Assembly (NCBI GenBank): GCA_007693745.1
Contig: REDA01000039.1
Coordinates: 186,001-250,000, forward strand
Length of the DNA stretch: 64,000 bases
From: Balneolaceae bacterium
GTDB taxonomy: Bacteria > Bacteroidota > Rhodothermia > Balneolales > Balneolaceae
Reading direction: 5' to 3'
Shown: positions 9,783-41,686 of the stretch, piece by piece
Numbering within the stretch: the first letter of the stretch is position 1
Layout: every line of letters starts with the position of its first letter
Notes under the pieces: model-generated
Databases searched by the model: none
What the model saw: only the letters and a program-made list of their open reading frames with translations
Told to the model about the DNA's origin: nothing
Translations under genes and position numbers: made by a program

Positions 9783-10406
9783 ATGATTGAATTAAGAGTA
9801 CATTCACTGTCAAAACAGTACGGATCCAACCGCGTTCTATCCGGAATCAGTTTTAGCAGTAATAAAAAGACGATTGGTATTGCAGGATCCAATGGCGCCG
9901 GGAAGTCCACACTTTTGCTCTGTCTTGCAGGATTGTTAAAGCCTAGCTCTGGCAGCTACGAGTGGTTCATTGACAGTGAAAACGTATCTAATTACAATTT
10001 AAATCATAAATTGGGATTTCTTGCACCCTACATTGAGTTATACGAAGAACTTACGGGTATGGAAAATCTTCAATTCCTTGCCGACGCCAGACACCTTCCG
10101 GAAGGGGCGGTTGCAGATGCCGTTGAGCTCGCTGAGGCGACTCTGTTTATTCACCAAAGCTACGGATCCCTCTCTACCGGTCAGCGCCAGCGCGTCAAAA
10201 TGGCAGCAACCCTGCTGCACGAACCTGTGGTTTTGATGCTGGATGAACCCGGCTCAAACCTTGATCAAAAAGGAACAGACACACTTGGCAGGGTGATCCA
10301 TCAGCATACAGAAAAAGGCGGATTAGTCATTCTGGCTTCCAACCAGGCAATGGAATTGAGTTTATGTGAACAGATAATTGACTTAAACAGCTACAGACGT
10401 GTATGA
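9783..10406 (+). CDS. ABC transporter ATP-binding protein (possibly CcmA-like)
   Basis: Single ABC ATPase of 207 residues. Walker A is GSNGAGKST (34-42), the Q-loop region follows LNHKLGFLAPY, the signature is LSTGQRQRVKMA and Walker B is VLMLDEPGSNLD, followed by a switch-region NQ in LASNQAM where a His is usual. No permease is next to it. The short length and the lone ATPase layout resemble the heme exporter ATPase CcmA, and ccmC-D-E-F in this window lack ccmA and ccmB, but that link is only a guess. Its stop overlaps the next gene's start by 4 bases (ATGA), so the two are coupled. It is divergent from the acidic-protein operon across 142 bp. Confidence 0.85.
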   Translation: MIELRVHSLSKQYGSNRVLSGISFSSNKKTIGIAGSNGAGKSTLLLCLAGLLKPSSGSYEWFIDSENVSNYNLNHKLGFLAPYIELYEELTGMENLQFLADARHLPEGAVADAVELAEATLFIHQSYGSLSTGQRQRVKMAATLLHEPVVLMLDEPGSNLDQKGTDTLGRVIHQHTEKGGLVILASNQAMELSLCEQIIDLNSYRRV

Positions 10407-37888: not shown

Positions 37889-40378
37889 TCACTCCTTCAT
37901 CTTCTTCTCTCTTCTCCAATGCCTGATAATTGAGATACTAAACCCGGTCATCAACAGAAATGTACCCAGCCAGACCACCGACACAAACGGCTTTTTCTCA
38001 GCTACAACGAGTATCCAGTCCTCTTCAAAATCCTCATCCAGTCCAAAGACGGTAAGTTCGATGGAATCGGATTCAGGATGTATCGAGGTAAACAGTACAC
38101 TCATTTCCCAGGCGTCGATATCGAGTGGTGGAGAGTAGATGAAACTCCTGTCACCTTCAGTATATACTGCAAAAAGTGGTTCTATCTCATACGCAGAACC
38201 TGAAGGCGTATGTTCAACACGAATCAGCGAACGAATTCCGATCTGAGTGTTTTCCGGCACAGCTTCTTCACCGGCCGGCCGGAAATCAATAAATGTAAAT
38301 GAAAAGGGCCCTGCAGCGATCGTCTCACCCTGTTTGATCTCAATCTTACGGATGTCATCCTCTTCTGAAGGATCGGAATCACCCATGCCAGCCGATCTCT
38401 CCCTGCTTCTTTCAAGTTCGTTATTTCTTCTTTCAACATAACGGCTGCCGGCCACATAGAGGTAAATATCACTTGTCCAGCCGGTCCGCACATGCGGATC
38501 TACAGACCATTCAATATTATCCGGGGTTGAAGAGGTTAGCATGGGATATACGACCGGCCTCATGTAGAAAGTCTGACTTCCGTCAATTGGCACAAACCGA
38601 AGCACATAATACTGCTGACCGGGTCGCGGTGAATCGCTGAGTTCATATCCTTCATAGGTGACCATGTAGCGATTGTTGATCAACTTCGGCCGGTTCAGCT
38701 CCAGCTGAAACATGTCAACCCGCTGTGTAACCGGAAAACCTTCATCATCAAATACATCACCTGCCATAATACGCTGATTGTACCGCTCCATCTCCTGATC
38801 CAGAAGGGGTACTGTATATACGGATGAGGCGATAATACCAAGAAGCAGGGCGCCAAACCCGATATGAGTTACAGTGCCCCCGACAAGTTTTGGGTTTTTC
38901 CTGATCAAATGAAGAAGAACTGTGCCATTACCGAAAACTGCAAACCAGGCAGTAAAAATATAAACCATATAGTAGAGATTGGTCACATCTCCCAGGATAA
39001 TACTCAATACTGAAGCAACGGAAGTAAACAGAAGCGGCCAGACCAGAACTCCGGCGAGTGACTCCCAGGTGTGCTTTTGCCAGAAAAGATACTGCCCGAT
39101 CACTGTCGCGATTGCCATAACCATGGCAATCGGCATACTCCAGACGTTATAAAACTGAATATCAGGAGGTGTTGGATTGTCCACAAAAAATCTTCCGATG
39201 ATTGGAGAGCTTGTTCCGATAATGATGACAAATCCCAAAATGAAAAGAAGTATTGCACCCGTAAAGGTCATGAACTCTTTACTCAAAAAATCAGACTCCT
39301 TCTCAGGACTCGGAAGCTCCTTGTAGCGATAGAGATAAAAACCTACACCCATAATGGTCATCACCAGAATAAACGTGAGCAGCTGACCGTAGAGTCCCAA
39401 ATCCACAAAACTGTGCACTGACTGATCTGCAAGCACACCCGAGCGGGTAAGAAACGTCTGATAGATGATTGCACAATAGGACAGGATAGCAAAAAAGAGA
39501 GCTGCTTTGTGGGCGCGCCGGCTTTTCCTTTGGATAATCATCGCATGAATACCGGCAGTTCCCAGCAGCCATGGCACCAGAGAAGCATTCTCAACCGGAT
39601 CCCATGCCCAGTAGCCACCAAATGAGAGGGTTTCATATGCCCAGTATCCGCCAAGAAATATTGCTGTCAGAAGTGACAGGTTTGCCGAAAGGGTCCATGG
39701 CAGAGCAGGCCGTATCCATTCATTGTACCGTTTCGTCCAGAGTGATGCGATCGCAAAGGCAAAGGGTACGGTCATCATGGCAAAACCAACAAAGATGATC
39801 GGCGGATGGATCATCATCCAGGGACTTTTCAATAAGTCGTTCAGCCCTGTCCCGTCAGCCGGTACAAAACCCGGATTGGCAAGGATAAAAGGGGCATTGG
39901 GCATTTCATCGGCAATGGTACGGAATGGGGATGCACCAATCTGAGTCACATTTAAATCCCAACCCACAACCATAGAGAGCAGAAAAAACTGAGTCAGAGA
40001 CATTACAAACATGACAGGTGCTTTATAAGGATCTCGGGTCCAGCGGATCAGGCCAAGCCCAACAATGAAGGAACAGAAAATCCAGAGCATAAAACTACCC
40101 TCCTGCCCCCCGTAAAAAGCTGAGAAGAGATACCGGGTCTCAAGGTCGAGGCTGGTATAGTTCCAGACGTAATAATACTGAAACTGATGCGTCATGATCA
40201 GCCAGATGAGTGCCCCGGAGGAAGCAGTAAGCAACAACCCTTTAGTCAACCAAAGCCAGTTGGATATTTTCTCCAGCTTCCAGTTATCCTTCGCAGAGGA
40301 TAAAGCATAAGCGATCATTGCGGCAAGTGAAGCAACAAATGCGCCGCTTAGAAACAGATTCCCTAAAGTCGCTATCAT
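37889..40378 (-). CDS. ccmF: Cytochrome c maturation heme lyase subunit CcmF
   Basis: Large inner-membrane heme lyase subunit, 829 residues with many helices in the first 520 and a long periplasmic domain (about 530-795) before a final helix. The heme-handling WWD motif is clear: GGYWAWDPVENASLVPWL, near residue 240. It joins heme delivered by CcmE to apocytochrome c thiols. It is the last gene of the ccmC-D-E-F operon, 6 bp after ccmE. No ccmG or ccmH follows, although these often accompany ccmF. Confidence 0.95.
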   Translation of the reverse strand: MIATLGNLFLSGAFVASLAAMIAYALSSAKDNWKLEKISNWLWLTKGLLLTASSGALIWLIMTHQFQYYYVWNYTSLDLETRYLFSAFYGGQEGSFMLWIFCSFIVGLGLIRWTRDPYKAPVMFVMSLTQFFLLSMVVGWDLNVTQIGASPFRTIADEMPNAPFILANPGFVPADGTGLNDLLKSPWMMIHPPIIFVGFAMMTVPFAFAIASLWTKRYNEWIRPALPWTLSANLSLLTAIFLGGYWAYETLSFGGYWAWDPVENASLVPWLLGTAGIHAMIIQRKSRRAHKAALFFAILSYCAIIYQTFLTRSGVLADQSVHSFVDLGLYGQLLTFILVMTIMGVGFYLYRYKELPSPEKESDFLSKEFMTFTGAILLFILGFVIIIGTSSPIIGRFFVDNPTPPDIQFYNVWSMPIAMVMAIATVIGQYLFWQKHTWESLAGVLVWPLLFTSVASVLSIILGDVTNLYYMVYIFTAWFAVFGNGTVLLHLIRKNPKLVGGTVTHIGFGALLLGIIASSVYTVPLLDQEMERYNQRIMAGDVFDDEGFPVTQRVDMFQLELNRPKLINNRYMVTYEGYELSDSPRPGQQYYVLRFVPIDGSQTFYMRPVVYPMLTSSTPDNIEWSVDPHVRTGWTSDIYLYVAGSRYVERRNNELERSRERSAGMGDSDPSEEDDIRKIEIKQGETIAAGPFSFTFIDFRPAGEEAVPENTQIGIRSLIRVEHTPSGSAYEIEPLFAVYTEGDRSFIYSPPLDIDAWEMSVLFTSIHPESDSIELTVFGLDEDFEEDWILVVAEKKPFVSVVWLGTFLLMTGFSISIIRHWRREKKMKE

Positions 40379-40384
40379 ATTCTT

Positions 40385-40780
40385 TTAACTCTCCTCAGCA
40401 TTGACAAATTCCAGTTGAGAAGGATCATTATACTTGGACGGGCACTTCATCAGCATTTCATTTGCATGAAATACATTATTTCGCATCTCACCTACAACCA
40501 CAAGCTGCGTTGCCTGTTCAAAATTGTTAGGCTTCGGCCTTGGATACACAACGCGACGCACATTTCCATCCTGATCTTTCATATGGAATGTAAACTGGAG
40601 TGTTTCGCGCGAGAAGCCATGAGCCTGAGTATTATCCCAGGTTCCTATTACATGCGATATCTGTCTTCCGTCAGCCTCTTCAAAGTTTACATACGTGCTG
40701 ATACTGTTACCAAAATTGTACATGAGCAGTGAGGTAAACCCCACAATTGCTATGATTCCAAAGATAAGTTTAGGCTTCAT
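40385..40780 (-). CDS. ccmE: Heme chaperone CcmE, cysteine (CXXXY) type
   Basis: Periplasmic heme chaperone, 131 residues, anchored by an N-terminal helix (4-22) and followed by an OB-fold barrel. The heme site is MLMKCPSKYNDP (109-120): C113 takes the place of the usual histidine in HXXXY, giving CXXXY with Y117. That variant occurs in the System I* group (Desulfovibrio and archaea). Its start overlaps ccmD by 11 bases and it lies 6 bp before ccmF. Confidence 0.94.
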   Translation of the reverse strand: MKPKLIFGIIAIVGFTSLLMYNFGNSISTYVNFEEADGRQISHVIGTWDNTQAHGFSRETLQFTFHMKDQDGNVRRVVYPRPKPNNFEQATQLVVVGEMRNNVFHANEMLMKCPSKYNDPSQLEFVNAEES

Positions 40781-41015
40781 TTTCAGTTTCTTTTATTGAT
40801 TCCTCAAGTTTAGATACTTTTTTATCTACTCTGATGATAAACCAAAGCAGCACAAACCAGATGATAAGACTCACCCCAAGCACCACAAAAATCAGATCAT
40901 TGGATGACATCCATTTCATCAGAAAAGAAGCCTCTTCCAGCCCTGCAGTACCCTCCCATCTGTCGGCATATGCCTGGGTCAGTGTATCAACGGTTGTCGG
41001 TTCGGTTTCGTGCAT
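40770..41015 (-). CDS. CcmD-like small membrane protein
   Basis: 81 residues with one membrane helix (about 40-62, DLIFVVLGVSLIIWFVLLWF) followed by a charged coiled tail (RVDKKVSKLEESIKETENEA), the CcmD layout, but with a longer N-terminal section than usual. CcmD holds CcmE to the CcmABC heme release complex. Called mainly from its place between ccmC (11 bp away) and ccmE (11-base overlap). Confidence 0.75.
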   Translation of the reverse strand: MHETEPTTVDTLTQAYADRWEGTAGLEEASFLMKWMSSNDLIFVVLGVSLIIWFVLLWFIIRVDKKVSKLEESIKETENEA

Positions 41016-41026
41016 AAAGTGCGTGC

Positions 41027-41686
41027 TTAAATATTGGATGCAGTTTTCAGTTCCAGCTGTTTATACCTCTTCAGGATATCCATCAACCAGAATGCCAGTC
41101 CGATAAATCCAAGTACTGCAGGATAAAAAATCAGCCTCAGCTCCGGAGCAGTGATGTCACTGAAAGCCGGATTTCCATCAGCACCGGGGTGAAGGCTTGG
41201 AAGCTGCCTTGGAATAATATACAAGAGAAACGGGATCGTGGTGACACCAAACACATTATAAACAGCAGAAATCTTCGCCCTCTTTTCCCTGTCGTTAAAT
41301 GCACTCCTCAAAACAAAATAGGCAACAAAAATCAACATAGCCAGGGCAGAAAGGTTCATTCGGGGTTCGGAGAATGTCCACCAGGTGCCCCACGTAAATT
41401 TTGCCCAAAGTGACCCGGTAAGCAGGCCGCAGATTCCGAACAGCAGCCCAACCATTGTGGCTGTCTCCGCCTTTAGATCCCAGCTCAGATGTTCATCATT
41501 GAGATAGCGTACACTAAAATAAAAAGCCATGGCAAACGCCACCATCATTGTAAACCACATGGGTACATGCAGAAACAGATTTCTGGCTGTCTCTTCAAGA
41601 ATTGGTATTTGTGGAATACGAATGAGAAAACCGGCTGAAATCACCAGTGTCATCCAGACCGCAACTATGTACTTCCAGGTCTTCAA
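41027..41686 (-). CDS. ccmC: Heme exporter/handling protein CcmC
   Basis: 219 residues, six predicted membrane helices. It presents heme to CcmE. The two external histidines expected to hold heme are present (H40 in LFLHVPMWF, H166 in LPSLHPG). The tryptophan-rich loop is WGTWWTFSEPR (99-109), in which the usual WWxWDxR has Phe and Ser-Glu where Trp and Asp are expected. It is first in the ccmC-D-E-F operon; ccmA and ccmB are absent here. The gene is divergent from the PH/SHOCT gene across 215 bp. Confidence 0.92.
   Translation of the reverse strand: MKTWKYIVAVWMTLVISAGFLIRIPQIPILEETARNLFLHVPMWFTMMVAFAMAFYFSVRYLNDEHLSWDLKAETATMVGLLFGICGLLTGSLWAKFTWGTWWTFSEPRMNLSALAMLIFVAYFVLRSAFNDREKRAKISAVYNVFGVTTIPFLLYIIPRQLPSLHPGADGNPAFSDITAPELRLIFYPAVLGFIGLAFWLMDILKRYKQLELKTASNI

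Follow-up and report, generated by a model that had tools for sequence, protein, structure and literature searches.

The ccmE gene of a Balneolaceae bacterium specifies a heme chaperone in which a cysteine stands where standard System I of cytochrome c maturation has the histidine of the HXXXY heme-attachment motif, and this raises the question of which maturation pathway the protein serves. Cys-type CcmE proteins are the mark of System I*, which the 2011 review of System I (PMC3601427) describes in archaea, Desulfovibrio, other delta-proteobacteria, Chloroflexi and Firmicutes, with CPSKY as the commonest motif among them (25 of the 36 genomes examined). The Desulfovibrio Cys-type CcmE binds heme covalently, and in E. 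coli its System I* produces holocytochrome with no need of CcmG or CcmH (PMC3601427). In Methanosarcina CcmE, C120 of the CXXXY motif is required for heme attachment (PMC9084895). Bacteroidota are not named in the passages of these two sources that treat System I* and Methanosarcina Ccm, respectively. The genes discussed below lie for the most part in the window, which is the whole stretch of 64,000 nucleotides that was analysed (Table 1).

Table 1. Cytochrome c maturation genes and heme-attachment motif located in the window
Feature	Positions	Strand	Size	Description and evidence
ccmE	40385..40780	-	131 aa	periplasmic heme chaperone; one N-terminal membrane helix and OB-fold domain
CPSKY heme-attachment motif	40430..40444	-	C113-Y117	replaces HXXXY; alignment to E. 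coli H130...Y134
ccmD-like gene	40770..41015	-	81 aa	small membrane protein; PF20077 (CcmD_alt) 27.5 bits, cut-off 23.5
ccmC	41027..41686	-	219 aa	heme-handling membrane protein; TTG start; PF01578
ccmA	9783..10406	+	207 aa	ATPase of the CcmAB transporter; best TIGR01189 match of the genome
ccmF	37889..40378	-	829 aa	holocytochrome c synthase subunit; PF01578 and PF16327; 6zmq match

The CcmE motif and its conservation

The translated reading frame, which reads MKPKLIFG...NEMLMKCPSKYNDPSQLEFVNAEES and ends in MLMKCPSKYNDPSQLEFVNAEES, scores 45.9 bits against Pfam PF03100 (cut-off 24.6), placing the protein in the CcmE family. Its AlphaFold model (mean pLDDT 88.6) has as top structure matches 8ce8_E (E. 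coli CcmE in the CcmABCDE complex), 2kct (CcmE of Desulfovibrio vulgaris), 1lm0 and 1sr3, and the best matches include His-type CcmE structures. The sequence-only reading had located the heme site in MKCPSKYNDP, with C113 in place of the conserved histidine and a tyrosine four residues on, and had assigned the protein to the Cys type of System I*. Both points are borne out by alignment with E. coli CcmE, in which Cys113 (motif context LMKCPSKYND) falls on His130 and Tyr117 on Tyr134. A profile search of the genome for a second CcmE, including the His-type copy that the same reading had named as a refuting find, found none, and the CPSKY protein is the sole CcmE. The pairing that defines standard System I, an HXXXY CcmE together with CcmH, is thus not that of this genome, which has a single CPSKY CcmE and no detected CcmH.

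CcmE was found by profile search in 264 of 392 phylum genomes that are at least 90% complete, and every one of the 156 genomes read across the GTDB phylum has CPSKY in its CcmE, a count that leaves out about 108 CcmE-bearing genomes of the sample. The 156 comprise a first set of 129 genomes (142 loci, some of them from the same genome) and a second set of 27 genomes picked from those whose CcmEs score toward the lower end in the phylum. Since the proteins that score best against the Pfam model, the place to expect His-type CcmEs, also carry CPSKY, a hidden His-type class is unlikely, and the presence of the motif in 156 of 156 genomes shows that it is not there by chance. Named carriers include Balneolaceae, Rhodothermus, Pedobacter, Chitinophaga, Ignavibacteria, Flavobacteriales and Calditrichales, the closest named relatives being Balneolaceae metagenome-assembled genomes; the scan of named genomes had KCPSKY among its patterns and overlaps the set of 156, and so is not independent evidence of invariance. 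Cys113, whose loss in close relatives had been named as a refutation, is retained in every relative read. The motif is real and meaningful, a variant already known and standard in the phylum, and the earlier description of a less usual maturation route finds no support, because Cys-type CcmE is the rule here.

Cys-type CcmE with missing CcmH is accordingly no oddity of Desulfovibrio and archaea; it appears to be fixed throughout a phylum that is both large and well studied, as judged from Flavobacteriales, Pedobacter, Chitinophaga, Ignavibacteria, Rhodothermales and Balneolales. Easily cultured members such as Pedobacter could be used to ask how cytochrome c matures without CcmH. The view that the motif is little described for this phylum may hold, in that the literature searched, outside which the key original paper (Allen 2006) lies, contains no description of a Cys-type CcmE motif in Bacteroidetes, Flavobacteria or Salinibacter; newness to the literature is not claimed for the phylum-wide pattern.

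Some genomes carry additional copies. In Rhodothermaceae bacterium bin80 a single contig bears two ccmE genes (L202 and L205), some 8 kb from each other and both with CPSKY. Additional CcmE-like reading frames occur in two genomes (L292 of G062, and G294:C1:1742707-1742913), and that of L292, at 116 aa, ends before the heme motif and is without CPSKY.

A dispersed gene set

The genes ccmC, ccmD, ccmE and ccmF form a tight string, with a gap of 11 bp between C and D, an overlap of 11 bp between D and E, and a gap of 6 bp between E and F. The ccmD-like gene occupies an equal position in relatives. CcmC matches TIGR01191 with an E-value of 9e-21, yet falls under the curated cut-off, as CcmA and CcmF also do under those of NCBI. 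An apparent extension of the CcmC match upstream across a TAA codon was rejected as an alignment overrun, the reading frame from TTG spanning the normal N-terminus. The WWD-type motif of CcmC reads WGTWWTFSEPRMN, and the aspartate of the E. coli motif WGTWWVWDARLT is apparently not conserved.

That ccmC-D-E-F stand alone, as had been noted from the sequence, is correct locally, but ccmA in the same window, 30 kb from ccmE, and ccmB on the same contig, about 130 kb from ccmE by profile search, had both been missed. The TIGR01189 cut-off did not by itself settle the identity of CcmA (124 bits against a curated 131.6), and the CcmAs of two relatives, taken from intact ccmA-B-C-E-F strings, were therefore used as queries. 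Against these the candidate scores 115-119 bits, and the next ATPase 76 (among the six best candidates). A genome-wide check for ccmA, ccmB, ccmG and ccmH, which had also been proposed, thus recovers ccmA and ccmB at dispersed positions, with CcmH undetected and CcmG-like proteins below cut-off. The CcmAB transporter, CcmCD and the CcmF synthase of System I are all in the genome.

Members of the order keep ccmCDEF together with neither ccmA nor ccmB adjoining, members of Rhodothermia have ccmB-C-D-E, and some more distant members of the phylum have ccmA-B-C-E-F in a single string; these layouts indicate that the split of the ccm genes is a trait of the lineage. Rhodothermia strings of ccmB-C-D-E with no CcmF resembling that of the window within the DNA examined occur at L097-L100 and L196-L206.

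CcmH and the proposed pathway

Established here are the gene set, the motif and its conservation, the predicted fold of CcmE, the heme ligands of CcmF and the failure to detect CcmH. The product of ccmE very probably serves as heme chaperone in a System I* pathway that is complete although its genes are dispersed. By analogy with the studied systems, from which the chemistry and the sequence of events are taken throughout, CcmC and CcmD would load heme onto CcmE with formation of a covalent bond to Cys113, probably a thioether, Tyr117 being the likely axial ligand. ATP hydrolysis by CcmAB would then free holo-CcmE, from which heme would pass to the WWD site of CcmF, and CcmF would join it to CXXCH apocytochromes without CcmH. 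DsbD and a TlpA/CcmG-like thioredoxin lipoprotein would probably hold the apocytochrome thiols in the reduced state. The genome contains two DsbD-type proteins and several CcmG/TlpA-like thioredoxin lipoproteins with CGPC. A full ccmGH set elsewhere, which had been set as a challenge to the System I* reading, was not found, the matches to CcmG being loose thioredoxin matches that all fall under the curated cut-off.

It is improbable that the pathway is instead standard System I, with a diverged or unassembled CcmH still working with CcmF and the cysteine merely a local change. In its favour are the draft state of the genome (95.5% complete, in 100 contigs), the chance that CcmH has diverged too far for PF03918, and the retention of CcmH by roughly a third of the bacteria that have a Cys-type CcmE (PMC3601427); the absence of CcmH is thus a common rather than a diagnostic trait of System I*, and the earlier expectation that a CXXXY CcmE goes with missing CcmH holds for this draft assembly, where CcmH is undetected, but not for such bacteria in general. 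Against a concealed CcmH, PF03918 finds nothing above noise in the genome, the lone match (E 0.85 over 35 positions) having been rejected, and the same search recovers CcmH in E. coli, Caulobacter, Thermus and Deinobacterium. Among the 392 phylum genomes only 12 have any match and 5 have one over cut-off, all outside the class, so that no class member in the sample gives a match, and no convincing CcmH was found elsewhere in the sample. The matches examined, which are part of the 12 and include over-cut-off ones, are not CcmH; they are proteins with a zinc ribbon, a membrane helix and CcmH-like half repeats.

A degenerate CcmE, or one carrying heme for something besides cytochromes c, is more improbable still, to the point of being hardly credible. 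The papers found contain no experiment for this phylum, but the gene sits in a tight string with ccmC, D and F, CPSKY is invariant, and the genome has CXXCH cytochromes to be matured. System II (CcsBA/ResBC) does not offer them another route, because the genome has only two PF01578 proteins, CcmC and CcmF, and a System II CcsA is therefore absent.

The System I* pathway proposed here resembles that of Desulfovibrio (Allen 2006, Goddard 2010, via PMC3601427) in its CPSKY-type motif in place of HXXXY, its undetected CcmH and its CcmD, and differs in belonging to another phylum and, in this order, in the dispersal of ccmA and ccmB from ccmCDEF. The Ccm of Methanosarcina acetivorans likewise has a CXXXY CcmE and no CcmH, but lacks CcmD and has CcmF split into CcmF1 and CcmF2 (PMC9084895), whereas the Balneolaceae genome has CcmD and a single long CcmF. 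With E. coli System I (CcmABCDEFGH) are shared the CcmA-F set, the OB fold of CcmE, the CcmF heme ligands and the WWD core; Cys113 in place of His130, the undetected CcmH and the location of the genes outside one operon are the differences.

The enlarged CcmF

CcmF aligns with Thermus CcmF (6zmq) across the transmembrane core and keeps the WWD domain, including its aspartate, in all sequences compared. Its residues H191, H278, H322 and H505 correspond to E. coli H173, H261, H303 and H491 and are kept in all 64 sequences. The protein is enlarged relative to the CcmFs of E. coli and Thermus, the two covered by the comparison: the stretch beyond the second transmembrane heme ligand is 324 residues long, compared with 156 in E. 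coli, and in 62 relatives it measures 256-420. In the model, a beta-rich periplasmic domain of about 260 residues (about 540-798) precedes the last helix. The extra domain has no Pfam match, and Foldseek with the whole CcmF chain returned 6zmq as the only match with a significant E-value, which leaves the domain without recognised parentage.

The occurrence of a larger domain where the phylum has no recognised CcmH prompts the guess that it may take over that protein's task. The broader proposal, that throughout Bacteroidota sensu lato the beta-domain replaces CcmH by docking apocytochrome c and that CcmABCDEF suffices phylum-wide, is speculative and rather doubtful.

Distant members of the phylum also have a CcmH-like domain outside a known CcmH gene: at L055 (1195-2016), L056 (1234-1995) and L058 (1081-2022), an N-terminal zinc ribbon and a membrane helix are combined with two CcmH-like half repeats (CGSCG...CxC).
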